A stretch of 64,000 nucleotides of DNA from Pseudomonas grandcourensis (GTDB lineage Bacteria; Pseudomonadota; Gammaproteobacteria; Pseudomonadales; Pseudomonadaceae), in NCBI RefSeq assembly GCF_039909015.1, contig NZ_CP150919.1, positions 3,758,501-3,822,500 on the forward strand, read 5' to 3'. The notes under the pieces were generated by a model that saw only the letters and a list, made by a program, of their open reading frames with translations, was not told the DNA's origin and made no database searches. Both the position numbers and the translations under genes were made by a program. Of this stretch, positions 32,101-44,570 are shown piece by piece (position 1 is the stretch's first letter; the number at the start of each line of letters is the position of its first letter).

Positions 32101-32236
32101 GGGTGCATTCGTCAGTGATGGCCAGGGCCTGATAACCCTGCTTTTTCGCACGCTGGAACAGCTCGAGGGCACTGGAGGCACCACGCTGGAAGCTGAAGTT
32201 CGACAGGCAGTGCAGTTCGGCATAGTCGATGTTCAT
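29159..32236 (-). CDS. imuC: error-prone DNA polymerase ImuC (DnaE2)
   Basis: A 1025-residue C-family polymerase catalytic subunit that performs mutagenic translesion synthesis with ImuA and ImuB. The N-terminal PHP domain ([30 protein letters not shown]) is followed by the polymerase core, with metal-binding aspartates in [14 protein letters not shown] and [10 protein letters not shown]. The C-terminal OB domain contains [16 protein letters not shown]. It has no recognisable proofreading domain. The ATG at 32236 overlaps the imuB stop by four bases; an upstream in-frame ATG at 32257 lies inside imuB. It is the last gene of the LexA2-controlled operon. Confidence 0.95.
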
Positions 32237-33648
32237 GCGAACCAGCCCTGCAACCATAGCGGGCCGTCCTCACCGACCGCCCGGTAGGCCCAGCCCTGTT
32301 GGCCGGCACGGGTTTCGATCAGGTAATAGTCACGGCGTACGTCGTCGCCGTCCCACCAACCGGACTCGATACGCTCCGGCCCCATGAGGATGCGCGCCGA
32401 GCCCTGATGCACGGCCAGCGGTTCAGTCAGCAGCCAGCCCGGCCGCTTCACCGCGGCCGGCACCGCGCAAGGCTGGCTGTCGGCACTGGCCTGCCACGCA
32501 CACTCGGGGCGGTGATCGGCCTGGAAGCGCAGGCCATGCACCGCGTCATCCCCCAGCCGTGCACGCAGGCGTTCGCGCAGTTGCTCCCAGGGCAAGGACT
32601 GCTGCGGGCGATCGTCGAACAGCTCCTGATGCTGGGGCACGAAGGTCGGCAAATCCTCGGCGCGCAGGCGAAAGCCACGCGCCGGCGCCTCGACCTGGAC
32701 CTGCTCCAGCCGCCCCCGGGCCAGTTCGAAGAGCATCGCCGGATCGCGCTCGGCGCTGAGCAGGCCGACCTTGATGAGCGTATCCGGCAACCCGGTGTGT
32801 TCCAGATGCAGGTCGAAACGCTGGACGCCGCTGTCGCGACCGCAGAGGAACGCCGACAGGTCGCCGGTCAACCGGCGCAACGGAAACAGCAAGGCTTGAT
32901 GGGACTGCACATCGAAATTGAGCTCGATACGCACATCGAAGCGGTCCGGCGGCAGGTAAAACGCCAGCGCCAGCCGCCGCGACCCCGACAGGGCATCCAG
33001 ATGCTTGAGCACCTGGGCCTCGAAACGCCGGGCCAGGCTATGCCGGGGCAGCGCCTGCACCTGGCTCAAGGTACGCAGGCCCATGCGCGACAAGGCCGTG
33101 GCAACCGGTGCTTCGAGGCCGATCCGGTCGACGGGCATTTGCCCCAGGTGATACTGCAAGGCTTGATCGTCCGGGACCACCAGACCGTCATAGGCGTTGG
33201 CCAGCACCCGCGCCGCCACCGGGTTGGGCGCGGCCACGATGCGGTGCCGAAACCCCAGTTCGCCGAGCTCACGGCGCACAAGCGCTTCGAATTGCGGCCA
33301 GGCGCCGAACAGGCCGAGGCTGGATTCGATCTCGAACACCAGGGCCCGGGGGTAGTGCACGCTGACCTGGGAACTGAAGCGATAGGCCCAGGCGGCGAGA
33401 AACTGCTGCCAGTGTTCGATTTCAGCGGCGTCGTATTCGGCCGTGACAAAGCCTTTGCTCAAGGCCTGTGCCGCGCTCATGGACTGGCCGGGACGCAAGC
33501 CCAGCGCCCGCGCCGTACCGTTGACGGCCTGCAGCACCCGGCGCTGGGCCGGGCCGGTCAGCAACGCCAGGGGTTCATCGGGATCGGCGCGCTGACGCAA
33601 TACCGCGTCCAGCGCCAATTGCGGGAAAAGAATGCAGACCCAGCGCAT
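32233..33648 (-). CDS. imuB: ImuB, Y-family-like translesion factor
   Basis: A 471-residue Y-family polymerase homologue that lacks the catalytic acidic residues: its first motif reads [16 protein letters not shown] instead of one with D-x-D. This is typical of ImuB, which acts as the hub binding ImuA, ImuC and the beta clamp. The helix-hairpin-helix region ([24 protein letters not shown]) and the little-finger region are present. The ATG at 33648 is 7 bases after the imuA stop. The frame extends upstream to 34014, but that part overlaps imuA and is not conserved-looking. Confidence 0.94.
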
Positions 33649-33655
33649 GGCAACC

Positions 33656-34273
33656 TCAATGCCCCACGGCGAAGGCAATCGGCGCCGAACGGGCCAGGCC
33701 GCCGCGACACTTGAGCACGCGCAGTTGTGCCGGTCGGGCATCGATGGCAATGCGCAAGGCTGCCGGCGAAGGGTTGATCGCTTCACCGAGGGGACGATAG
33801 GCGAAGGCCAGGGTCTGGCCGGTTTCCGCCGCCACCTGCAAGCGGCGCAAGGCGCGGTCATCGGCCTTGTGCGGCCAGCACAGCACCGCACCGCAACTGC
33901 CCGAACGCAGGCATTGTTCCGCGGCCCACAGCGCATCGCGCTCGCTGGCCTGGATGATCGACAACTGACGCAGATCGACCCCGGCGCCCTGCCACGCCTG
34001 GGGGTACGGCACATAAGGCGGCGCCACCAGCACGATGCGCTCGCCCGCCGCCGACAGCCGTGCCAGCGTCGGCCACACCAGTTGTAGCTCGCCCACGCCC
34101 TGCCCGGCCAACAGGATTTCCGTCAGCGCCGCCTCCGGCCAGCCACCGCTGGGCAACGCGGCGTCCAGCGCGGCATGCCCGGTGGGTTGCGGGCTGGCGG
34201 CCGGTGGCGCAGGCCGGCCCTTCCAGACCTGGCCGCCATTGAACAGCGTATCCAGCGCAACGACGGCGCCCAT
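33656..34273 (-). CDS. imuA: ImuA, translesion-synthesis accessory protein (RecA/SulA-like)
   Basis: A 205-residue protein starting MGAVVALDTLFNGGQVWKGR. It resembles RecA/SulA in the core (LPSGGWPEAALTEILLAGQG, corresponding to a degenerate Walker A region). ImuA is required with ImuB and ImuC for damage-induced mutagenesis, probably by interacting with RecA and ImuB. Its start overlaps the lexA stop by one base (TGATG), and imuB follows 7 bases downstream, so the four genes form one transcript. Confidence 0.92.
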   Translation of the reverse strand: MGAVVALDTLFNGGQVWKGRPAPPAASPQPTGHAALDAALPSGGWPEAALTEILLAGQGVGELQLVWPTLARLSAAGERIVLVAPPYVPYPQAWQGAGVDLRQLSIIQASERDALWAAEQCLRSGSCGAVLCWPHKADDRALRRLQVAAETGQTLAFAYRPLGEAINPSPAALRIAIDARPAQLRVLKCRGGLARSAPIAFAVGH

Positions 34274-34890
34274 CAGCCTTGCCTCACCAGGCCACAGAAC
34301 ACGCCTTCGATGGCCAGGTCCCGGTCGGCCTCGACAATGATCGGCTGGTAGGCCGGGTTGCGTGGCAGCAGGCGAACCACATCGCCGACCCGCTCGAAGC
34401 GCTTGATGGTGACTTCGCCGTCGAGCCGCGCCACGACGATCTGGCCATTAACGGCCTCGGGGCTGCGGTGCACGCCCACCAGATCGCCGTCGAGAATGCC
34501 GTCCTCGATCATCGAATCACCCCGCACCCGCAACATGTAGTCCGGCACCCGCGAGAAGATCGACGGATCGAGCAGCAAGCGGCTGTGCACCTCGGCATCG
34601 GCACCGATCGGCGCACCAGCCGCCACCCGGCCGAGCACCGGGATGTCCAGCAACTCGGGACGCGGCGGCTGCCCGAGCAGGCGAATGCCCCGGGCCTGAT
34701 GCGGGTTGACCTCGATAAACCCGGCTTCGGTCAACGCCAGCACATGCTTGCGCGCCACGCTGCGGGAGGCGAAACCGAACGCCTCGCTGATTTCAGCGAG
34801 GCTCGGAGGCTGACCGTGCTCTGCGATGCGATCGCGGATAAAGGTCAGGATGGCGGTACGGCGGGGAGTCAGAGTCGTCATGGAGTACAT
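34273..34890 (-). CDS. lexA: LexA2-type SOS repressor
   Basis: A 205-residue LexA from the ATG at 34890 (MYSMTTLTPR). An N-terminal winged HTH (SLAEISEAFGFASRSVARKH) is followed by the self-cleavage domain: Ala91-Gly92 scissile bond, catalytic Ser126 (RGDSM) and Lys163 (TIKRF). It heads the imuA-imuB-imuC operon. That is the arrangement of the second LexA of fluorescent pseudomonads, which represses this mutagenesis cassette and itself, distinct from the general SOS LexA1. A frame open to 34974 has no better start, and an alternative ATG is at 34881. The operator described at 34885-34896 overlaps the start codon. Confidence 0.93.
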   Translation of the reverse strand: MYSMTTLTPRRTAILTFIRDRIAEHGQPPSLAEISEAFGFASRSVARKHVLALTEAGFIEVNPHQARGIRLLGQPPRPELLDIPVLGRVAAGAPIGADAEVHSRLLLDPSIFSRVPDYMLRVRGDSMIEDGILDGDLVGVHRSPEAVNGQIVVARLDGEVTIKRFERVGDVVRLLPRNPAYQPIIVEADRDLAIEGVFCGLVRQG

Positions 34891-34896
34891 TTGTAC
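34885..34896. promoter_or_regulatory. LexA2 operator, GTAC-N4-GTAC
   Basis: The palindrome GTACATTTGTAC overlaps the first codons of lexA. It fits the GTAC-N4-GTRC type described for P. putida LexA2 rather than the CTGT-N8-ACAG box of LexA1. LexA2 cleavage after DNA damage would free the whole lexA-imuABC transcript. Confidence 0.75.
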
Positions 34897-34924
34897 TCTT
34901 TTGGCTTTTTCCTGGCAAGGACTT

Positions 34925-35005
34925 GTAGGAGCTGTCGAGTGATACGAGGCTGCGATCTCTTGAGGCCAGAGCAAAAAGATCGCAGCCTGCTGCAGCTCCT
35001 ACAGG
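34925..35005. repeat. long imperfect palindrome, third REP-like class
   Basis: TTGTAGGAGCTG and GGCTGCGATCTCTTG are mirrored by CAAAAAGATCGCAGCC and CAGCTCCTACAGG, giving a large hairpin upstream of lexA. It marks the point where normal GC-rich sequence gives way to the AT-rich stretch. Confidence 0.65.
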
Positions 35006-35517: not shown

Positions 35518-36261
35518 ATGCCTAAAAATATTCTGCCCAGAGTTCTCGCCCTAACGTCCATATTCATAAAAGAACAACTAAAAGAACCCATCGCCTTGTT
35601 CTGGATCATGATATCACCTTGTGCGATGTTCTATTTTTTTGCAATAACCAGACAAGACCCCAACTACTTTTCGAGCAATTACATTACGATTTCAGCATGG
35701 TTTTATGCTTATATCTCTTCTAGTGTCGCATTATTTGGATTCGCCTTTTACATAATCGGAAGAAGGGAAAGCGGATTCACTCGATCGTTTATTTACTCCA
35801 AAGAATCAAAACTGATTTTTCTTTTGTCGCACTTCATAGCTTACTCATTAATATCGATATCTTATTGCACAGCCTTTTACTTAACAACCAAGTTCCCATT
35901 CGGAAACCACGACCTCAATGAACTACTAAATATCGCACTACGCTTTTACATCTGCTTTATCATGTTTTGCGCGATCGGGGCTGCTTTCTCATTGTTACCG
36001 ATCAACTTCCAGAACTCGAACACTTTGCTTTCCATTTTTTCGTTCTGCATGCTGATTCTCGGCGTAATGAGTGCCAGCAGATCAAACCACATTACCGACG
36101 CTTTGAACCTCGCAAACCCACTGACACTTGCAAGCCAGATAATGGAACAAGGCCTTGAATCCAACAAACTCATCACGACAGCAATAATTATTTTATTTAT
36201 TTCAGTACTGCACAAAACCTTCAAACACCTAAGAATCAATCCCGTATGGAGTCGATACTGA
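35518..36261 (+). CDS. ABC-2-type transporter membrane subunit (putative)
   Basis: A 247-residue protein with about six membrane helices (ALFWIMISPCAMFYFFAI, then AWFYAYISSSVALFGFAFYI, FYICFIMFCAIGAAFSLLP, LLSIFSFCMLILGVM). This is the size and pattern of an ABC-2-type exporter permease. The next gene is the ATPase, overlapping by one base (TGATG). Codon use is rich in ATA, TTA and AGA, unlike all flanking genes, so recent acquisition is likely. It could export a peptide or drug, or give resistance. Low similarity to anything I recognise keeps the family assignment general. Confidence 0.7.
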   Translation: MPKNILPRVLALTSIFIKEQLKEPIALFWIMISPCAMFYFFAITRQDPNYFSSNYITISAWFYAYISSSVALFGFAFYIIGRRESGFTRSFIYSKESKLIFLLSHFIAYSLISISYCTAFYLTTKFPFGNHDLNELLNIALRFYICFIMFCAIGAAFSLLPINFQNSNTLLSIFSFCMLILGVMSASRSNHITDALNLANPLTLASQIMEQGLESNKLITTAIIILFISVLHKTFKHLRINPVWSRY

Positions 36262-36980
36262 TGAAAAAATTCACGGCGCAGAGCATTGACTTCTCCTATA
36301 CGGACAAGCCCCTCTTGACCCAGGCATCTCTTGAGGTTGCTCAAGGCGACATTGTCGGTATTCTGGGGCCGAATGGATCTGGCAAAACAACTTTTTTCGA
36401 TATCGTTTGTGACCTTAAAAAAGCAAAGTCCGGCTTCATAAAAAACGACTTCAGTCACTTTTTATACCTTTCTCAAATCATCTCCACTCCCCCACCGTTG
36501 CGCATGCGTGACATCTTTAAAATGGTGACCGCGCTGTCATCAAGCGAACGCATGACGCAAGATAAAACCCTGAAAAAACTAAGCGCGTGGAGCCCTGCGA
36601 TAGTTGACCGATATCAAGACATATGGAACAAAAAATCATCGCTATGCAGCTACGGAGAGACACGCTGGTTCTTTACTCTCTCTCTTCTTTCAATTTCTGC
36701 AGACTTCGTGATTCTCGACGAACCTACTGCCGGTATAGATCCAGAATTTCGTCGCTATATTTGGCAATGCCTTCACGGCGCCGCCAGGGAGGGCACCGCT
36801 ATTCTGGTTTCCTCGCATAATGTTGATGAGGTAATTAACCACTGTGATTATTTTTTCATGATTAGCCAGCAACGCTTCAATCGCTTTGCCAATGCTAGTG
36901 AGTTCATGCATCGGTATGGCGTAAAGACTGTGGACGATGCATTTATCCGAGCCGTTACTGAACCTGTATTCGCAACATAA
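36261..36980 (+). CDS. ABC exporter ATP-binding protein
   Basis: 239 residues from the ATG at 36261, which has GGAG upstream; a start at 36246 would lie inside the permease gene without a ribosome-binding site. Walker A is GPNGSGKTT (residues 36-44), the Q-loop LYLSQ, Walker B FVILDEPTAGID and the switch His in LVSSHNVDE. The signature motif reads CSYGETR instead of LSGGE. No permease is fused. With the preceding membrane subunit it makes a minimal two-gene exporter. The AT-rich codon use continues here. A stem (GGGAGCTG / CAGCTCCC, 37001-37029) after the stop may end the transcript. Confidence 0.85.
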   Translation: MKKFTAQSIDFSYTDKPLLTQASLEVAQGDIVGILGPNGSGKTTFFDIVCDLKKAKSGFIKNDFSHFLYLSQIISTPPPLRMRDIFKMVTALSSSERMTQDKTLKKLSAWSPAIVDRYQDIWNKKSSLCSYGETRWFFTLSLLSISADFVILDEPTAGIDPEFRRYIWQCLHGAAREGTAILVSSHNVDEVINHCDYFFMISQQRFNRFANASEFMHRYGVKTVDDAFIRAVTEPVFAT

Positions 36981-37049: not shown

Positions 37050-37328
37050 TCAGTCGGTAAGCCCAGCAAGATAAGCCCACGGATAAATCCCCCGCTCATG
37101 CCCATCGCTGAAGACCAGTTGCAAACCATAGCCCTGCGAGTGCAACTCGATCACCTGAACCCGCGCATCCACCATCGGCGCCATCCCCCGCAACCGAAAC
37201 GCCCGGCACTGCGAGCACGGGCACTGCCGGCGCAGTTCGGCGTGTTCGAACACCTGTTCGCGACCATCCGGCCAGTTCAGTCGCAACTGCTGTTTGCTGC
37301 GGGAATTGCCAATCGCCAGCGGGTTCAT
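37050..37328 (-). CDS. DUF971 family protein
   Basis: A 92-residue DUF971 domain protein (RLNWPDGREQVFEHAELRR, then CPCSQCRAF and YGLQLVFSDGHERGIYPWAYL). It keeps the CxCxxC cluster often seen in this family, also found as the N-terminal domain of gamma-butyrobetaine hydroxylases and near Fe-S assembly (Mrp/ApbC) genes. It is last in the minus-strand operon and overlaps the HEAT-repeat gene by four bases. A role in metal or cluster supply to the upstream flavoprotein/ferredoxin is inferred. Confidence 0.85.
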   Translation of the reverse strand: MNPLAIGNSRSKQQLRLNWPDGREQVFEHAELRRQCPCSQCRAFRLRGMAPMVDARVQVIELHSQGYGLQLVFSDGHERGIYPWAYLAGLTD

Positions 37329-38287
37329 TGCAGTTGGCTCAAGGCAATACGCACGGCTTTGCGCACTTCAGGGTCACCGTCGTCTTGAGCGGCCTGCAAT
37401 GCCGCAATGGCCCCAGGGTCGTTCAATTCGCCCAAGGCCAACGCGGCTTCCTTGCGCAGGTTGCTGATGCGGTGGCCGAGGGTGTCGATCAACGCGTCCA
37501 GGGCAGGTACAAAACGCAAGCGACCGAGGCTGCGGGTGGCGCGCAGGCGCACTTGCCAGTAATCGTCGCCCAAGGCGTCGATCAGGGCCGGGCCAGCGTC
37601 GAGGTGGCCGACCTTGCCCAGGGTGGTGGCGGCTTCTTCGCGGACTTGCCAGGCATCATCGCGCAAGGCCTGGCGCAGGGCCGGCAGCACCTGTGCGTCA
37701 GACGCCAGGCCCAAGGCCCCGGTGGCGGCACGCCGAACTTCAGTGTCCGGGTCGGTGCTGGCCAGCCGCGCCAGTGCCGGCAAGGCATCGAGTTGCTTGA
37801 GCCAGCCGAGCACGCCCACCGCCTCGCGGCGTACGCTGGCGCTTTCATCGTCCAGTGCCCGGGCCGCCGCATCGGCGGCATCGGGGCAACGCAACTCGCG
37901 CAGCGCCCTGAACGCGGCAATACGTACGCCGCTGTCGGCGTGCCCGGTCCACGGCAGGATGACCCGGCCCGCCGCTTCACTCTTGAGCAGGCTGAGGCTT
38001 TGCGCAGCGGCCACCTGCACCGCCGGGGATGGATCCGTCAGCGCCTGGCACAACGCTTCGACCACCGGCTCGTCCTCCCAGGCTTCCAGCAGGCGTGCGG
38101 CTTCGGCGCGAACGTCTGCAATCGGGTCTTCGGCCAGGCGATTGATCAACCACTGCAGGCCGTCCGGCTCCTCGAGATCGGCCAGTTCGATCAGTGCGAT
38201 CCGGCGCACGCCGGGGTCGTCATCGGTCAGGCGCGGTTGCAGGGCAAGAATGTCGTCGTTATCGGTTACATCGAATAATGAGGTCAT
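37325..38287 (-). CDS. HEAT-repeat (PBS-lyase-like) protein
   Basis: A 320-residue protein made almost entirely of ~30-residue alpha-alpha repeats with the HEAT pattern, such as ALIELADLEEPDGLQWLINR, AATGALGLASDAQVLPAL and VREEAATTLGKVGHLDAGPA. No catalytic motif is seen; such proteins act as scaffolds or as maturation factors. It overlaps the ABC ATPase gene upstream and DUF971 downstream by four bases each, so it belongs to the transporter/redox operon and may bind the redox enzyme or its cofactor. Confidence 0.85.
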   Translation of the reverse strand: MTSLFDVTDNDDILALQPRLTDDDPGVRRIALIELADLEEPDGLQWLINRLAEDPIADVRAEAARLLEAWEDEPVVEALCQALTDPSPAVQVAAAQSLSLLKSEAAGRVILPWTGHADSGVRIAAFRALRELRCPDAADAAARALDDESASVRREAVGVLGWLKQLDALPALARLASTDPDTEVRRAATGALGLASDAQVLPALRQALRDDAWQVREEAATTLGKVGHLDAGPALIDALGDDYWQVRLRATRSLGRLRFVPALDALIDTLGHRISNLRKEAALALGELNDPGAIAALQAAQDDGDPEVRKAVRIALSQLQ

Positions 38288-39132
38288 AGGGCAAATCGCG
38301 GCAGTTTGTTTTCAAGGGGAAGTCCGAGCGGGTTCAGGCGCGGCAGTTGCCGGCCGTCTTCGTGCCGCAGGAGTTCGAGGCAATGGCGCTTGAGGTGCGA
38401 GAACTCAGGGCGGGTCACCAGTTCCGTGCTGCGCGGCCGGGGGAAGTCCAGGCGCAGGTCTTCGATGATTCGTCCGGGGCGCGAGCTCATGACCAGCAGG
38501 CGATCGGCGAGGAACAGCGCTTCGTCGATGTCATGGGTGACAAACACCACGGTGGTGCGGATGCGCGTCCAGATGTCCAGCAGCAGTTCCTGCATGTTCA
38601 ATCGGGTCAGGGCATCGAGGGCACCGAAGGGTTCGTCCATCAGCAACAGGCGCGGACGGTTGACCAGCACCCGAGCGATTTCCACTCGCTGCTGCATACC
38701 GCCGGACAGTTGATCGGGCCAGCGCTCGGCGAAACCTTCAAGGCCCACCAGCGCGAGGATTTCATCCGCCGCCTTATGCCGTTCGGCCTTGCCGATGCCT
38801 TGCATTTTCAAGCCGAACGCCACGTTGTCGCGCACCGTGCGCCACGGAAACAGTGTGTGCTGCTGGAACACCATGCCGCGCTGGGGCGATGGGCCCGACA
38901 CCGCTGCGCCATCGACATTCAGCGTGCCTGTGCGCGGTTGCAGGTGGCCGGCCAGGGCGCCGAGCAAGGTGGACTTGCCGCAACCGGACGGCCCGAGAAT
39001 GCACACGAACTGCCCCGGCTCGATCTGGCAGTCGAGGCCCTGCACCGCTTCGAAAGCAGTGTCGCCCTCGCCCAGGCTGATCGACAGCCCGCGAATATCG
39101 ATACGCCCTTCCAGGTGTTGAAAAACGCTCAT
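38284..39132 (-). CDS. ABC importer ATP-binding protein, nitrate/sulfonate type
   Basis: 282 residues from the ATG at 39132 (MSVFQHLEGR), overlapping the permease stop as TGATG; the frame itself stays open to 39639. Walker A is GPSGCGKST, signature LSGGMQQR, Walker B LLLMDEPFGALD, switch His FVTHDIDEAL. The size and C-terminus are those of the SsuB/TauB/NrtC group. It powers uptake through the adjacent permease of the ligand bound by the protein encoded at 40050-41456. Confidence 0.9.
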   Translation of the reverse strand: MSVFQHLEGRIDIRGLSISLGEGDTAFEAVQGLDCQIEPGQFVCILGPSGCGKSTLLGALAGHLQPRTGTLNVDGAAVSGPSPQRGMVFQQHTLFPWRTVRDNVAFGLKMQGIGKAERHKAADEILALVGLEGFAERWPDQLSGGMQQRVEIARVLVNRPRLLLMDEPFGALDALTRLNMQELLLDIWTRIRTTVVFVTHDIDEALFLADRLLVMSSRPGRIIEDLRLDFPRPRSTELVTRPEFSHLKRHCLELLRHEDGRQLPRLNPLGLPLENKLPRFAL

Positions 39133-39914
39133 CAGGCTTTTCCTCGTGGTCGATGCCAGGGCGTGAACAGCCCGCCCAGACGCTTGATCAACAGACTGCT
39201 GCCCATCCCGAGCACGCCGATCAGCAACATACCGACCACGATGTCGGCGTAGTTCTGGATGGTGTAGGACTCCCAGGTGTAATAGCCGATGCCGAATTGG
39301 CCGGAGATCATTTCCGCCGTCACCAGGCAGAACCACGAGGTGCCCATGCCGATGGCCAGGCCGGTGATAATGCTGGGCGCGGCACCCGGCAGAACGACCT
39401 CCAGCAGGATTGCCCGGCGCCCTGCCCCGAGGCTTTTCGCCGAGGCGATCAGCCGTGGGTCGACGCCCTCGACGCCGTGCACGGTGTTGAGCAGGATCGG
39501 GAACAGTGCGCCGGTGAAGGTGATGAACACCATCGACAGTTCCGAGGAGGGAAACATCAGGATCGCCAGGGGAATCCACGCCACCGCCGGGATCGGGCGC
39601 AGCACTTCCAGGGGTGGCAGCAACAGATCTTCGGCCCATTTCGAGCGGCCGATGGCCAGGCCCAGGGCCACGCCGATGATCAGCGCCGCGAGGTAACCGG
39701 CGAACACCCGGCCGAGGCTGCTACCCAGGTGCTGCGCGAGTTTGCCCGAGTCACCGAGGCCGAGGGCGGCTTCAATGACCGCCACGGGTGTCGGGACGTT
39801 GGCGAAGGTCACCAGGCCGAGGTTCCAGTGGTGGCTGGCGGCGAGTTGCCAGAATACGAGGCAGAGCAGCAAGGATACGGCTCTGAGGATCCAGCGTGAA
39901 TATGATCGGTACAC
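39132..39914 (-). CDS. ABC importer permease, nitrate/sulfonate type
   Basis: A 260-residue inner-membrane protein with six predicted helices and the family EAA-type loop (LIASAKSLGAGRRAILLEVVLPGAAPS). It starts at a GTG (39914) behind AGGAGG. This is the SsuC/TauC class. It is separated from the binding-protein gene by 135 bases holding a REP doublet, but the order and shared strand suggest one transcription unit. Confidence 0.9.
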   Translation of the reverse strand: MYRSYSRWILRAVSLLLCLVFWQLAASHHWNLGLVTFANVPTPVAVIEAALGLGDSGKLAQHLGSSLGRVFAGYLAALIIGVALGLAIGRSKWAEDLLLPPLEVLRPIPAVAWIPLAILMFPSSELSMVFITFTGALFPILLNTVHGVEGVDPRLIASAKSLGAGRRAILLEVVLPGAAPSIITGLAIGMGTSWFCLVTAEMISGQFGIGYYTWESYTIQNYADIVVGMLLIGVLGMGSSLLIKRLGGLFTPWHRPRGKA

Positions 39915-39938
39915 AAATCCTCCTCTCGACCCAAACCT

Positions 39939-40030
39939 TGTAGGAGTGAGCCTGCTCGCGATAGCGGTTTCACGTTCAACATTGATGTCGACTGACCCAC
40001 CGCTTCGCGAGCAGGCTCGCTCCTACAGGG
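39939..40030. repeat. REPIN-like inverted doublet (gcgagcaggctcgc class)
   Basis: TAGGAGTGAGCCTGCTCGCG and its inverted near-copy CGCGAGCAGGCTCGCTCCTA flank about 40 bases between the binding-protein and permease genes. It could lower expression of the distal genes relative to the binding protein. Confidence 0.8.
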
Positions 40031-40049
40031 GGCTGTGGTGTTTCGGCTG

Positions 40050-41456
40050 TTAGCGAACAGCCACGGCCTGCGCAGTGGCATCAGTGAAGTCGAGGACCTT
40101 GCCGCCCTGCGCCGTGGCGAACTGTTGGGCCTGGCCTTTGAGCAGGAACGCACTCAGTTGCCCTTTCCCATCGGTGGCAAACCACGCCTGATCCGCCAGC
40201 AGCTTGATCCCGCTGTCGCTGGCCTGGGCGTACACCGCGCGGATGCTCCTGCCTTCCTGCTTGAGGCTGGCCAGCGCGGTAAACGCCGCTTGCGCCGAGG
40301 CGTACTGGCGGACTTTCGGCTCACCGCGTACCCAGATTTCCGCCACGTGGCTGAAGTCGGTGATGGCCTGGCCGCTGGTGGCATCGACGGCCTTGAGCGG
40401 CGCCTGCCCATAACTGGCCAGTTGTGCGCTGTAATCCAGGTTCGAAGCCTTGAAGGCGGCGCGGATGTATTGGTCGTCGATGAAGGTGTTGAGATCCAGA
40501 CCTCGATCGGCCTTTTTCAACAACTTGAGGGTGTCGATGGCGGTGCCCACGGCCTGACGGTATTCCGGCTTCCAGCTCAGGTCGCGAGTCTGCACACCGA
40601 GGGGGCCATGGAACAGATAATTGACCTCGGCATCGACCCCGGTGACCTTGGCGATCAACTCGCTGTATTTCTCCGGCTCAGCCGCCAACAGCTGGTTGGC
40701 TTCGATACTCGCCCGCAGGTAAGCGACAACGATTTCCGGGTACTTTTTCGCATAGGCCTGATCGACCAGCGCACCGTGGAAGGTCGGCGCGTTGGCTTGG
40801 GCGCCGTCATAAATCTTGCGGGCGAAACCACGGCTGGGGAAAAGTTCGGCGAAGGGCACGAAGTCAGCGTGTGCATCGATCTTGCCGGCCTGCAACGCGG
40901 AGCCGGCGACTTCCGGCGGCTGGGCGATGATGTTCACGTCTTTGAGCGGGTCCCAGCCCTGGGCCGCGACGGCGCGCAGCAGCATGCCATGGGCGGTGGA
41001 AGCGAACGGCACGGAAATGGTCTTGCCCTTGAGCTCTGCCAGGGACTGCACGCCCGATGCGCTTGGCACCACGATGCCGTTGCCGCTGCCCTTGATGCTG
41101 CCCGACAGCACGCTGATGAACAGGCTGTGCTTGCCCGCCGTTTCGAACGCCACGCCGTTGAACGCGCCGGGGAAGTCGGCCATGGCGCCGAAGTCGAGTT
41201 TGCCGGCCACCATTTCGTTGGTCAGGGGAGCGCCGCTGGTGAAGTTTTTCCACTGCACTTCGTATTGGGCGTCTTTGTAGGGGCCATCGTGGGGCAGGTA
41301 TTTGTCCAGCAGCCCGAGTTCGCGAATCAACAATCCGCCAGCGGCGCAGTTGATGGTGGTGTCCTGGGTGCCGATGGCAATGCGGATGGTTTCGGCCGAG
41401 GCCGACAGGGTGAATGAAGCCAGTACCAGACCGGCCAAAGCTGCACGCAACATCAT
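40050..41456 (-). CDS. ABC substrate-binding protein, nitrate/sulfonate type, with C-terminal extension
   Basis: 468 residues from the ATG at 41456, with GAGGGG upstream. The signal peptide (LRAALAGLVLASFTLSASA) leads into a SsuA/TauA/NrtA-like binding domain (TIRIAIGTQDTTINCAAGG, NEMVAGKLDFGAMADFP, LKGKTISVPFASTAHGML). SsuA-type proteins are usually ~320 residues; here ~110 more follow from about residue 357. The tail (WFATDGKGQLSAF, then AQQFATAQGGKVLDF) resembles the NosL copper-binding fold but has no Cys or clear metal ligands. The ligand is unknown; the context suggests an organosulfur or organonitrogen compound processed by the AprA-like enzyme. Confidence 0.82.
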   Translation of the reverse strand: MMLRAALAGLVLASFTLSASAETIRIAIGTQDTTINCAAGGLLIRELGLLDKYLPHDGPYKDAQYEVQWKNFTSGAPLTNEMVAGKLDFGAMADFPGAFNGVAFETAGKHSLFISVLSGSIKGSGNGIVVPSASGVQSLAELKGKTISVPFASTAHGMLLRAVAAQGWDPLKDVNIIAQPPEVAGSALQAGKIDAHADFVPFAELFPSRGFARKIYDGAQANAPTFHGALVDQAYAKKYPEIVVAYLRASIEANQLLAAEPEKYSELIAKVTGVDAEVNYLFHGPLGVQTRDLSWKPEYRQAVGTAIDTLKLLKKADRGLDLNTFIDDQYIRAAFKASNLDYSAQLASYGQAPLKAVDATSGQAITDFSHVAEIWVRGEPKVRQYASAQAAFTALASLKQEGRSIRAVYAQASDSGIKLLADQAWFATDGKGQLSAFLLKGQAQQFATAQGGKVLDFTDATAQAVAVR

Positions 41457-41588
41457 GAGTGTTTCCCCTCGAATCATTTATTGGATGTTCGTCTCCGCCA
41501 CGATCAGGGCGTGGTGGGAAACGAGGGGTGTCTTGAATCAGGCGTCCGGTGGTGCCGGATGGCGTTTTAGCGTTGTTTGGGCTGGCCT

Positions 41589-41613
41589 CTTCGCGAGCAG
41601 GCTCGCTCCTACA
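41589..41613. repeat. single REP-like palindrome
   Basis: One copy of CTTCGCGAGCAGGCTCGCTC followed by CTACA, just downstream of the ferredoxin stop and upstream of the binding-protein gene. Confidence 0.65.
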
Positions 41614-41625
41614 TTGATTTGTGTT

Positions 41626-41871
41626 TCAGCGCAGCAGATATGGGATCTCGACTTTCACAGCGCCCGTCGGGCAGTCCTTTTCACAGGGCATGCAGTACCA
41701 GCATTCATCGAATGCCATGTAGGCCTTTTGCGTGGCCGGGTTGATCGCCAGCAGGTCCATCGGGCAGACGTCGACGCACACGGTGCAGCCTTTGTGGGCG
41801 ATGCATTTGTCCTCGTCGACGGTGACGGGGGCGTTGGAACGGAAGAAGATTTCCTGGGCTTGATAGGCCAT
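41626..41871 (-). CDS. AprB-like 2x[4Fe-4S] ferredoxin
   Basis: An 81-residue ferredoxin from the ATG at 41871. Two cluster motifs are clear: CIAHKGCTVCVDVCP and CWYCMPCEKDCP, each with four Cys, so it should carry two [4Fe-4S] clusters. The size and pairing with the AprA-like flavoprotein 26 bases upstream match the beta subunit of adenylylsulfate-reductase-type enzymes. It would pass electrons to or from the flavoprotein. The frame is open to 42030, but that overlaps the flavoprotein gene. Confidence 0.88.
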   Translation of the reverse strand: MAYQAQEIFFRSNAPVTVDEDKCIAHKGCTVCVDVCPMDLLAINPATQKAYMAFDECWYCMPCEKDCPTGAVKVEIPYLLR

Positions 41872-41897
41872 TTCACGGTCTCTCTCTTGGGTGATGC

Positions 41898-43628
41898 TCA
41901 GGCGGCATCCGCGCCGACCCGCAGCCGGTCGTAAGCCTGCATCTCGTCGGCATCCAGCGGGATGATGTAAGGCTCGACGGCTTTCTTGAAACTGCTCATC
42001 AAACCGTTTTCGTCTTTCTTCAGGTGGCAATGGCAGAACCAGTCGCGGTCGTTGCGTTGCGGGTGATCGACGCGGTGGTGGTAAAGCCCCCAGCGGCTTT
42101 CGGCGCGGAACAATGAAGCACGGGCGGCCATTTCGGCGCAGTCGCGGATCATGCTGACTTCCATGGCGCGCATCAGCTCGTGGGCGTTGTGGGCCTTGAT
42201 CTGGTCGAGATCGCGCTGGATATCGCTGAAGCGTTGCAGGCCGATCTGCATCTTCTTGGTCACTTTCGGCGGTTGCAGGTAGTCGTTGACGAAGCGCCGC
42301 AGCTTGTATTCGACCTGAGCCGGTGGCAGGCCGTGCTCACGATCCAGCGGTGCGTAAACCCGTTGTTTTTCGGTTTCGATCTGCCGGGCATCCAGGGCCG
42401 AAAACTCACGCCCGGCGACAAAATCCGCCGCGTTGTTGCCGGCGAACCAGCCATAGGTGAACGCGCCGAGCATGTAGTTGTGCGGCACGGCAGCCATGTC
42501 CCCGGCTGAGTACAAGCCCTTGACCGAGGTCTCGGCTTTCTCGTTGACCCACACCCCCGACGCCGAATGCCCGCTGCAAAAGCCGATTTCCGAGATGTGC
42601 ATCTCGACCATCTGCGTGCGGTAGTCGGTGCCGCGATTGGCGTGGAACTGGCCGCGACTCGGACGCTCGTTGCTGTGCAGGATCTCTTCGATGTTCTGGA
42701 TGGTTTCCTCGGCCAGGTGATCGAGCTTGAGGAACACCGGGCCATTGCCGCTTTCCAGCTCCTGGTGGAATTCCCACATCATCTGCCCGCTCCAGTAGTC
42801 GCACTCGATGAAGCGTTCGCCCTTGTTGTTGGCGGTGTAGCCGCCCAAGGGGCCGGTGACGTAGGCGCAGGCCGGGCCGTTGTAATCCTTGATCAGCGGG
42901 TTGATCTGGAAACACTCCAGGTTCGCCAGCTCGGCTCCGGCGTGGTAAGCCATCGAGTAGCCGTCGCCGGCATTGGTCGGGTTTTCATAGGTGCCCATCA
43001 GGTAGCCCGAGGACGGCAACCCCAGGCGTCCGGCGGCACCGCAGGCGAGGATCACCGCCTTGGCCTTGATCACATGGAAGTCCGCGGTGCGGCAGTCGAA
43101 GCCCATCACGCCGTTGACCGCGCCCTCCTCATCCGTCAGCAATCGGGTGCAGACCAGGCGATTGGTGATGCTCACCCGCGCGCGCTTCAACTGCCGATAG
43201 AGGACTTTCTTGATGTCGTGCCCTTCCGGCATCGGCAACACATAAGCGCCCATGTGGTGGACCTTTTTCACCGCGTAGTCGCCGGTTTCGTCCTTCTCGA
43301 ATTTCACGCCCCAGCGGTCCAGTTGCTCGATGGTCTCGAAACTGTGGGTGGCATAGGCGTACACCGCAGCCTGATTGACGATGCCGTCGTTGGCGATGGT
43401 GATTTCCTTGGTGTATTGCTCAGGCGTCGAGTGGCCGGGAATGATCGCGTTGTTCAGGCCGTCCATGCCCATGCTGATCGCGCCGCTGCGCTTGACGTTG
43501 GCCTTGTCGATCAACAACACCCGCAGGTCGCGGTTGCGTTCCTTGGCCTTGATCGCCGCCATCGGGCCGGCGGTGCCGCCGCCAATGACAACGATGTCGT
43601 ATTCCTGCTCCAACGTGCTGCGCGTCAT
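41898..43628 (-). CDS. AprA-like FAD-dependent oxidoreductase (fumarate-reductase superfamily)
   Basis: A 576-residue flavoprotein with an N-terminal FAD site (IVVIGGGTAGPMAAIKAKE) and a second, C-terminal FAD-contact region (GLYSAGDMAAVPHNYMLGAF). The layout is that of the succinate dehydrogenase/fumarate reductase/APS reductase alpha family. The partner ferredoxin and KRSGAISMGMDGLNNAI point to the AprA branch, although dissimilatory AprA is ~650 residues. The start overlaps the upstream regulator stop by four bases (ATGA). The substrate is not assignable; sulfite/APS chemistry is only one possibility. Confidence 0.82.
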   Translation of the reverse strand: MTRSTLEQEYDIVVIGGGTAGPMAAIKAKERNRDLRVLLIDKANVKRSGAISMGMDGLNNAIIPGHSTPEQYTKEITIANDGIVNQAAVYAYATHSFETIEQLDRWGVKFEKDETGDYAVKKVHHMGAYVLPMPEGHDIKKVLYRQLKRARVSITNRLVCTRLLTDEEGAVNGVMGFDCRTADFHVIKAKAVILACGAAGRLGLPSSGYLMGTYENPTNAGDGYSMAYHAGAELANLECFQINPLIKDYNGPACAYVTGPLGGYTANNKGERFIECDYWSGQMMWEFHQELESGNGPVFLKLDHLAEETIQNIEEILHSNERPSRGQFHANRGTDYRTQMVEMHISEIGFCSGHSASGVWVNEKAETSVKGLYSAGDMAAVPHNYMLGAFTYGWFAGNNAADFVAGREFSALDARQIETEKQRVYAPLDREHGLPPAQVEYKLRRFVNDYLQPPKVTKKMQIGLQRFSDIQRDLDQIKAHNAHELMRAMEVSMIRDCAEMAARASLFRAESRWGLYHHRVDHPQRNDRDWFCHCHLKKDENGLMSSFKKAVEPYIIPLDADEMQAYDRLRVGADAA

Positions 43629-44377
43629 GCCTGCTCCCCTTTTTGCCGGTCGATCCGCAGGCGGTACTGGAAGGCATCGCCACGGTAGTAAAGGTGTTCG
43701 AAGTCCAGCGGCCGACCCTCGACATCGTGGGTCAGGCGCTCGATGCGCATGATTGGCGAGCCAGGTTCGACATTCAGCGCCCGAGTCAGGTCGCTGTCGG
43801 CCAGTACCGCATCGATGGCCAGGTCGGCGTGCCCCAGGGTCAGGCCGCAGTCGTTTTCCAGGATCTGGAAAATGTCGCGGGTGACCAGGTCGGCTTTTTC
43901 CAGGCGCTCACCAACGGCCTTGGGCAGGTAAGTGATTTCCAGGGAAATCGGCTCGCGGTTGATCAGGCGCACCCGTTTGATCTGCGCCACGACCTCGCCT
44001 TCGGCCACCTGCAAACGCTCGGCGACGAGCTTGTCGGCGGCAATGAATTTGAAACTGCGCAGGCGGTTGATCACCTCATAGCCGCGACCAGTCATGGACT
44101 CAGCCAGGCCTTGCAGGGTGCTGACGTTCTGGAAGGTTTTCGGTTTGGCGACGAAGGTGCCTTTGCCGTGGATCTTGAAGATCAGCCCTTCCTTTTGCAG
44201 GTCACCCAAGGCCTGGCGCACGGTGATGCGGCTGACCTTGAACAACGTGCCAAGCTCGCTTTCGGAAGGCATCTGGCTGTCTTGGGGGTATTTGCCGTCG
44301 AGGATGCGGGCACGCAGCACGTCTCGCAGCTGGGTGTGTAACGGGACGCTGCTCAGGGATAGAACGTTATCGGTCAT
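43625..44377 (-). CDS. GntR family regulator, UTRA (HutC-type) domain
   Basis: A 250-residue regulator with an N-terminal winged HTH (LRARILDGKYPQDSQMPSESE, KVSRITVRQALGDLQKEGLI) and a C-terminal UTRA ligand domain (SMTGRGYEVINRL, RLTHDVEGRPLDFEHLYYRGD). It heads the operon and is translationally coupled to the flavoprotein, so it most likely autoregulates the whole run in response to the imported substrate. Three TTATRAC-type repeats lie upstream of its start. Confidence 0.9.
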   Translation of the reverse strand: MTDNVLSLSSVPLHTQLRDVLRARILDGKYPQDSQMPSESELGTLFKVSRITVRQALGDLQKEGLIFKIHGKGTFVAKPKTFQNVSTLQGLAESMTGRGYEVINRLRSFKFIAADKLVAERLQVAEGEVVAQIKRVRLINREPISLEITYLPKAVGERLEKADLVTRDIFQILENDCGLTLGHADLAIDAVLADSDLTRALNVEPGSPIMRIERLTHDVEGRPLDFEHLYYRGDAFQYRLRIDRQKGEQA

Positions 44378-44380
44378 GGC

Positions 44381-44429
44381 AGATCACTTGTTATAACGAG
44401 TTATGACGTGATCTTAGAGAAGTTATGAC
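44381..44429. promoter_or_regulatory. candidate operator of the GntR/UTRA regulator
   Basis: AGATCAC and GTGATCT form a 7-bp inverted repeat enclosing GTTATAAC (a perfect palindrome, 44390-44397) and GTTATGAC (44400-44407). A third copy GTTATGAC lies at 44422-44429. They sit 4-52 bases upstream of the regulator start. GTTATRAC cores are typical of HutC-type operators; binding itself is inferred. Confidence 0.6.
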
Positions 44430-44483: not shown

Positions 44484-44570
44484 CTGTAGGAGCGAGCCTG
44501 CTCGCGATGGCGGCGGGTCAGTCGACTTCAATGTTGAATGTGAAACCGCTATCGCTCGCTCCTACAGGGG
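44484..44570. repeat. REPIN-like doublet, one arm decayed
   Basis: TAGGAGCGAGCCTGCTCGCG is followed after about 45 bases by a shortened inverted arm CGCTATCGCTCGCTCCTACAG, which has lost the central GAGCAGG. Confidence 0.7.

Follow-up and report, generated by a model that had tools for sequence, protein, structure and literature searches.

An AprAB-like flavoprotein operon with an ATP-binding cassette importer, conserved in Pseudomonas and rearranged in other bacteria: a candidate for organosulfur scavenging

The Ssu, Tau and Ats scavenging systems rely on an O2-dependent oxygenase or a hydrolase. To our knowledge, aerobic bacterial desulfonation (Ssu, Msu, TauD) spends O2, and the O2-free routes are lyases or radical enzymes. 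Dissimilatory adenosine 5'-phosphosulfate (APS) reductase, AprAB, pairs a FAD-carrying alpha subunit with a beta subunit bearing two [4Fe-4S] clusters. The same architecture serves an assimilatory, reductive enzyme, the 3'-phosphoadenosine 5'-phosphosulfate (PAPS) reductase of Methanothermococcus thermolithotrophicus (hereafter MtPAPSR; available excerpt of PMC10322725), and AprA-like archaeal proteins without the AprA residues are mentioned in the accessible part of PMC7174415. The locus considered here lies in a 64,000-nucleotide stretch ("the window") of Pseudomonas grandcourensis, taken from a genome of 6.76 Mb in a single contig (NZ_CP150919.1, positions 3,758,501 to 3,822,500). Its eight minus-strand genes (37050-44377) tie an AprA/AprB-like pair to an importer of the sulfonate/nitrate/taurine type. 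This eight-gene operon is a conserved bacterial module that extends beyond one strain. Its function, judging from sequence and gene context, would be organosulfur scavenging, a reading to which we give nearly an even chance: a sulfonate-like compound would be imported and reduced in a ferredoxin-driven, O2-independent reaction that releases sulfite. No description of the module was found in the open-licence PubMed Central (PMC) literature, and the available portion of PMC12581299 contains nothing on it.

Layout, conservation and spread of the operon

A check of open reading frames together with Pfam and NCBIfam profile searches gave the following features.

44387-44400, minus strand: predicted operator (sequence CTCGTTATAACAAG; consensus CTTGTYATRACAAG), located some 10 nt upstream of where the regulator gene starts
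43625-44377, minus strand: GntR/UTRA transcriptional regulator (PF00392, PF07702)
41898-43628, minus strand: AprA-like FAD flavoprotein (NCBIfam NF006131/PRK08275; tree; residue check)
41626-41871, minus strand: AprB-like 2x[4Fe-4S] ferredoxin of 81 aa with CWYCxxCxxxCP (profile match and motif)
40050-41477, minus strand: periplasmic binding protein of the NMT1/SsuA family, ending in a NosL-like stretch (profile and PDB matches)
39132-39914, minus strand: ATP-binding cassette (ABC) permease, sulfonate/nitrate/taurine type (PF00528; under every listed NCBIfam cut-off)
38284-39132, minus strand: ABC ATPase, TauB/NrtD type (PF00005; under the cut-offs of the best 25 of 186 families)
37325-38287, minus strand: HEAT-repeat protein, probable flavoprotein partner (PF13646 in 5 stretches; NF010374 alignment)
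37050-37328, minus strand: DUF971/GBBH-like_N protein, possible Fe-S or metal accessory (PF06155)

The positions match those of a preliminary description made from the sequence alone, and its gene order and overlaps of 1 to 4 bases agree with the coordinates. The regulator gene overlaps the flavoprotein gene by 4 nt, the permease and ATPase genes share 1 nt, and the ATPase/HEAT and HEAT/DUF971 overlaps are 4 nt each; 26 nt separate the flavoprotein gene from the ferredoxin gene. Wider gaps follow the ferredoxin gene (148 nt, before the binding protein) and the binding-protein gene (135 nt, before the permease). Because both gaps carry REP-like (repetitive extragenic palindromic) repeats, the coupling there appears looser. 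The ATPase frame as listed reaches 39639, an over-long start, and the gene was taken as 38284-39132; judged by eye, the true start of the binding protein is probably the ATGATG near 41456.

REP/REPIN-like inverted repeats are located within the operon and just upstream of it, at 41612-41586, 40028-39935 and 44567-44482. The repeat GTAGGAGCGAGC occurs on the minus strand at 41612, 40026 and 44565 and on the plus strand at 44486. Repeats of this kind in the operon gaps may affect transcript stability.

Conservation was assessed in 80 Pseudomonas-type loci, the best-scoring of a longer list from named records, which are closely related and comprise 79 Pseudomonas loci and one from a Paucimonas metagenome-assembled genome. 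All eight genes stand in order in 75 of the 80; four of the exceptions (L011, L020, L036, L046) are cut off by the end of a contig, and in the fifth, L052, no regulator was detected. Among the matches listed, the nearest flavoprotein is that of Pseudomonas fluorescens C8 (L053; 100%). Median identity to the window is highest for the ferredoxin (97.5%) and the flavoprotein (95.3%) and lowest for DUF971 (75.7%). The preliminary description had made its proposal depend on a gene order kept outside this strain. The order is kept, the gene set recurs in rearranged form in other lineages, and a strain-specific oddity is ruled out on both counts.

The core of flavoprotein, ferredoxin and HEAT protein, often accompanied by DUF971 and the importer, was found rearranged in Burkholderiales, rhizobia, Methylobacterium, Acidithiobacillus, cyanobacteria and actinobacteria. 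Of 398 genomes of the phylum, 21 have a member of the flavoprotein family that scores above the family cut-off, as do 38 of 397 genomes from the order of genome G159; the two samples have members in common. Relatives at E <= 1e-30 number at least 6,478 among 8,000 candidates, not all of them certainly of the same family. A flavoprotein match is present in 53 plasmid records, spanning Paraburkholderia, Rhizobium, Acinetobacter, Acidithiobacillus, Methylobacterium, Pseudanabaena, Nostoc, Leptolyngbya, Tsukamurella and Nonomuraea.

Forty non-Pseudomonas loci were surveyed (L109, L110, L117-L128, L148-L173), mostly from one order, so that the counts are not independent; genes in high-GC loci were called with a GC-periodicity caller and BLAST. 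The ferredoxin and the HEAT protein are each present in 39 and DUF971 in 38 (tblastn). A complete, three-part importer accompanies 31; among those without one, L153, L170 and L172 are short contigs, and L109 and L127 are not short. Additional genes are ferredoxin-NADP reductase (FNR; 26/40), a Crp/Fnr regulator (26/40) and an FdxA-like second ferredoxin (12/40). The FNR and Crp/Fnr families were confirmed on examples, and the FdxA label comes from sequence and the Methylobacterium annotation. The plasmid survey covered 18 regions out of the 53 records, two of them unannotated, with flanks of about 9 kb; ferredoxin and HEAT protein occur in 18/18. Among these regions, the Methylobacterium radiotolerans series reads DUF971, flavoprotein, ferredoxin, HEAT, Crp, binding protein, permease, ATPase, FdxA, FNR, Crp. 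FNR, found at 26 of the 40 loci yet in 1/18 plasmid regions, and DUF971, at 38 of the 40 yet in 8/18 (tblastn), are both rejected as universal partners.

Several versions of the module have neighbours of their own. On the Acidithiobacillus caldus plasmid pTcM1 (L174:10574-14035), FdxA comes after the module, together with a 1153-aa protein whose sole match is Pyr_redox_2. In Nostoc edaphicum (L176:10713-13894), the flavoprotein and ferredoxin genes are separated by annotated genes for HAD hydrolases, a methyltransferase, a GNAT protein and a VOC protein, and in Methylocystis (L181) a GNAT protein and an amidase adjoin the module; such GNAT/amidase-type neighbours are perhaps substrate-processing genes. 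At L109 (8083-9609) no ABC importer was found, and a divergent major facilitator superfamily carrier, which may replace it, is located beside the regulator.

The flavoprotein, its partners and the predicted operator

The flavoprotein contains FAD_binding_2 and Succ_DH_flav_C domains and scores 1139.3 bits against NF006131 (PRK08275; cut-off 587), compared with 190.6 bits against the aprA model TIGR02061, which is below the cut-off of 641.75. Its best PDB match is MtPAPSR (8a8o; 215 bits). A tree was built from 45 rows, namely 27 of the family, 12 AprA, MtPAPSR and 5 of fumarate reductase, succinate dehydrogenase and L-aspartate oxidase (Frd/Sdh/NadB), the family and AprA rows being a subset of those in hand. 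The family, AprA and MtPAPSR together stand apart from Frd/Sdh/NadB with support of 100/100, which places the flavoprotein outside the fumarate reductase/aspartate oxidase clade that would have undone the preliminary description. AprA and MtPAPSR group together at 100/100, and the flavoprotein family forms one group with modest support (83/85); MtPAPSR and FrdA are on long branches.

Active-site residues distinguish the family from both FrdA and AprA. FrdA His232, Glu245, Arg248, Arg287 and Arg390 (mature numbering) are lost in 27/27 family rows, with only His355 retained, and the position of the covalent-FAD His44 of FrdA is Gly in the family. Likewise in 27/27 rows, Trp234 of Archaeoglobus fulgidus AprA is replaced by Tyr214 and Arg265 by Leu245. 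A second Arg, present in every AprA row and in MtPAPSR, lies where these 27 rows have a gap. The same three positions are Trp, Arg and Arg in 12/12 AprA rows and in MtPAPSR. Asn59 (the A. fulgidus Asn74 position) and the active-site His354 are common to all 27 family rows and AprA; the equivalent of His354 is presumably A. fulgidus His398, and for the AprA residues Trp234 and Arg265 and the FrdA residues we assume the roles usually ascribed to them. The MtPAPSR loop Lys120-Arg121-Ser122 becomes Val, His and then His (22/27) or Arg (5/27).

Because key residues of both groups are missing in 27/27 rows, the flavoprotein appears to be neither AprA nor Frd. Together with the ferredoxin it seems to form an AprAB-type complex whose active site is distinct, neither an APS nor a fumarate reductase. 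Identity as fumarate reductase, succinate dehydrogenase or NadB is rejected on the tree split and the residue losses, and identity as APS reductase on the score below cut-off, the changed residues and the missing Sat (PF01747: 0 matches in the window's own genome). The earlier label "AprA/AprB-like" therefore stands as a statement of relatedness, carried by the tree and the CWxC motif, and fails if it is taken to mean APS reductase, from which the catalytic residues differ; the coupling of the pair to an importer in a genome with no Sat match was described correctly.

The motif CWxCxxCxxxCP is present in 137/137 ferredoxins found (138 loci searched), its Trp placed as in AprB. In MtPAPSR, a role of Trp42 in electron transfer is proposed in the available excerpt of PMC10322725.

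In an alignment to the fused family NF010374 (898 positions), the HEAT protein covers positions 620-865. In Tsukamurella, a single 893-aa protein combines the flavoprotein with HEAT repeats and is encoded beside GntR, ferredoxin and ABC genes; the Nonomuraea flavoprotein frame is also long, at 935 residues. A part as scaffold or flavoprotein partner is plausible for the HEAT protein from the Tsukamurella fusion. A service to Fe-S clusters is likewise plausible for DUF971 and is hinted at because, in four cyanobacterial plasmids, Mrp/NBP35 follows the HEAT gene where no DUF971 match was found (Pfam confirmed in three). Counting against this role, L174, L177, L181, L182, L183 and L189 are also without a DUF971 match.

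The binding protein finds its best NCBIfam model in SsuA_fam TIGR01728 (125.7 bits, E 2e-36; below the cut-off of 163.5), and its top PDB matches are sulfonate, taurine and nitrate-type binders. Its roughly 100 C-terminal residues (40050-40345) weakly resemble NosL (E 7e-4, below the gathering score). NosL proteins are copper chaperones. PF05573 is precomputed for part of the binding-protein homologs, the NosL-like stretch occurs in some rhizobial and cyanobacterial relatives, and the Pseudanabaena binding protein has a weak PF05573 match. The C-terminus of a LysR-type regulator beside the Pseudanabaena module weakly matches NMT1 (20.8 bits, below the cut-off of 24.7), which would suit a regulator that responds to the ligand of the binding protein.

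The operon's own regulator has no NCBIfam equivalog above cut-off among the best 25 of 26 families. Upstream of its gene, the palindrome CTTGTYATRACAAG was found with no more than 2 mismatches in 83/85 loci whose regulator is at least 50% identical (the exceptions are L078 and L182), and in 0/82 control stretches taken 2 kb upstream; the Pseudomonas loci are related, so the 83 occurrences are not independent. The window's own genome has one exact site and three one-mismatch sites, the latter no more than a reversed control. The site also occurs in Acinetobacter (2 mismatches), Aquabacterium (1) and L117 (2). We predict that the palindrome at 44387-44400 is the binding site of the operon's own GntR/UTRA regulator.

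Sulfur context and candidate functions

YeiH, a putative sulfate exporter, more likely exports sulfite according to the available part of PMC11582611. Its family (PF03601) has 40 copies in 33 of the 40 genomes surveyed above. Ten of these 40 copies are no more than 10 kb from the flavoprotein gene (G159, G111, G365, G682, G384, G200, G695, G718, G012, G632), against a chance expectation of about 0.2 for a 22-kb target and a genome of about 5 Mb. One arrangement is common to five of the ten and a second to two more, which leaves about five separate placements. In Pseudanabaena (two records) and Leptolyngbya, three plasmids in all, the module is followed by YeiH-type and TauE exporters, and in Aquabacterium TauE precedes it; overall, exporters adjoin the module in 4/16 annotated plasmid regions. 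The Acinetobacter region has a transporter of TSUP, the superfamily of TauE, about 6.6 kb away with other genes between, and was left out of this count.

Sulfur genes, namely taurine dioxygenase, taurine- or sulfonate-binding protein, D-cysteine desulfhydrase or sulfatase, are present in the 10-kb flanks of 9/80 Pseudomonas-type loci (L062, L065, L068, L069, L070, L072, L073, L076, L077). Six loci whose sole match was the operon's own binding protein, at 30-31% identity, were left out (L012, L014, L017, L051, L078, L079). The operon at L065 is flanked by D-cysteine desulfhydrase and by tauD and tauA, all three above cut-offs. Cupriavidus and Sinorhizobium americanum likewise have sulfonate-type genes next to the module. 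Chromate raises TauD and a sulfonate-type binding protein in P. putida F1 (excerpt of PMC2996968), whose genes may lie elsewhere than beside this operon. Where the preliminary description left open an organosulfur or an organonitrogen compound, gene context favors the former, and no positive evidence was found for the latter.

The following mechanism would account for these observations. A small sulfonate-like (S-oxo) compound would be imported by the SsuA-like periplasmic protein and the ABC transporter and reduced in the cytoplasm by the two-subunit AprAB-type flavo-iron-sulfur enzyme. Electrons might pass from NADPH through ferredoxin-NADP reductase and ferredoxin to the AprB-like subunit and on to FAD. 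On the model of APS reductase, the sulfonyl group would pass to the reduced flavin and be set free as sulfite, which would enter ordinary assimilatory sulfite reductase, any excess being exported. The HEAT protein would be a standing partner of the flavoprotein, and DUF971, or Mrp/NBP35 in cyanobacteria, may supply Fe-S clusters. The UTRA regulator would repress the operon via the CTTGTYATRACAAG palindrome until an inducer arrives. It should be noted that we infer sulfonate import, the reductive direction, the sulfite product, the flavin adduct and repression alike.

The steps differ in strength. A place of the module in sulfur metabolism is, in our opinion, very probable. Many alphaproteobacterial loci have FNR and FdxA beside the enzyme, a sign of NADPH-fed reduction that we do not take as established, because FNR is reversible and missing near most other versions. 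The reductive direction is accordingly somewhat favored, a judgment slightly lowered because FNR occurs in so few plasmid regions. We lean to a similar degree toward sulfite as the released product, and with sulfite exporters nearby in several lineages, reductive sulfite release is the simplest joint reading. That the substrate is a C-sulfonate, and not an S-, N- or O-sulfonate, is possible, at somewhat less than an even chance. A wider proposal, in which a third branch of the AprA superfamily would use ferredoxin electrons to cleave an imported organosulfonate (or S-/N-sulfonate) and free sulfite, a widespread, O2-independent reductive desulfonation found in pseudomonads, rhizobia, cyanobacteria and actinobacteria, we regard as rather unlikely.

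Several results weigh against sulfonate import with reductive sulfite release. In L001-L058, the group to which the window belongs, seven marker probes had no match in the flanks (six of these loci being short). The single YeiH gene of the window's genome is about 2.7 Mb from the operon, YeiH is not near the flavoprotein gene in G324, G328 and G170, and among the matches listed in the 40 genomes, no TauE lies within 10 kb of it. The binding-protein family is one that carries nitrate and other solutes too. The APS-reductase mechanism may not carry over, because Trp234, Arg265 and the second Arg are not kept. Finally, besides its scarcity in the plasmid regions (1/18), FNR is not found beside the operon in L109, L110 and L117, nor was it seen in the window.

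Four other explanations were considered. The best of them, unlikely though worth weighing, is that an organosulfur compound (sulfoxide, sulfinate or thiosulfonate) is reduced without release of sulfite to give a reduced organosulfur product; FNR, FdxA and the sulfur-gene neighbours are compatible with any S-oxo substrate, and the residues used by AprA are altered in the family, whereas the adjacent YeiH and TauE exporters suggest a product that is sulfite or sulfate. Somewhat less probable is an oxidative enzyme, in which sulfite or an imported reduced sulfur compound would be oxidised and electrons passed to ferredoxin, as by AprAB in sulfur oxidisers. AprAB is generally known to be reversible in those organisms, the module occurs on an Acidithiobacillus caldus plasmid, and FNR works both ways and is not found near many versions; the missing Sat match, Leu at the Arg265 position, the attached importer and the taurine-scavenging neighbours at some loci all count against oxidation. 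A shade less probable again is a nitrogen or carbon substrate (nitrate-like, nitro, N-oxide or vitamin precursor) with incidental sulfur neighbours. NMT1/NrtA-type importers are generally known to carry nitrate and thiamine precursors as well, amidase and GNAT genes adjoin the module in Nostoc and Methylocystis, and the L001-L058 flanks contain no sulfur-marker match; sulfite/sulfate exporters and taurine or D-cysteine genes, however, recur alongside in unrelated lineages. An ordinary fumarate reductase, succinate dehydrogenase or L-aspartate oxidase paralogue, as the NCBI product name and the FAD_binding_2 and Succ_DH_flav_C domains would have it, is highly improbable given its place across the 100/100 split and the five FrdA positions lost in 27/27 rows, with only His355 kept.

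If true, a ferredoxin-fed AprA-type desulfonase, or any new enzyme of the clade, would give a function to a large family whose present database name is "fumarate reductase/succinate dehydrogenase flavoprotein subunit", and would explain why soil, plant-associated and photosynthetic bacteria have a sulfur-linked module in common. With its compact operon and operator-like site, the module is directly testable.

Surroundings of the operon and comparison with known systems

Two neighbouring regions of the window deserve mention. At 35518-36980, ending 69 bases short of DUF971, a plus-strand protein with no Pfam match and an ABC ATPase are encoded at a G+C content of 42.7%, compared with 60.7% window-wide; this is possibly foreign DNA. 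At 32233-34974 are a LexA-like regulator (LexA_DNA_bind, Peptidase_S24), a 205-aa protein with no Pfam match and an IMS-type polymerase-like protein, an arrangement we take to resemble the lexA-imuA-imuB SOS mutagenesis cassette.

Compared with known systems, the operon shares with dissimilatory AprAB the FAD alpha and 2x[4Fe-4S] beta subunits with CWxC, the conserved Asn and His, and a position in the clade neighbouring AprA and MtPAPSR. It differs in the attached importer, HEAT protein and DUF971, in a genome with no Sat match, and in a flavoprotein that falls below the aprA cut-off and does not retain Trp234, Arg265 and the second Arg. The M. thermolithotrophicus PAPS reductase is its closest match in the PDB and shows that the AprAB architecture can be assimilatory and reductive (excerpt of PMC10322725), but its Lys-Arg-Ser substrate loop is replaced here and an importer is attached. 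The PRK13800/NF010374 fusion proteins unite the same flavoprotein family with a HEAT partner in one chain, whereas two separate genes are present here; the NF010374 model has a generic name only. Finally, the operon resembles the Ssu/Tau/Ats scavenging systems in its SsuA/TauA-like ABC importer and in the tauD, tauA, ssuA-like or sulfatase genes near some Pseudomonas-type loci; unlike those systems, it contains no oxygenase and instead encodes a ferredoxin-type flavoenzyme.

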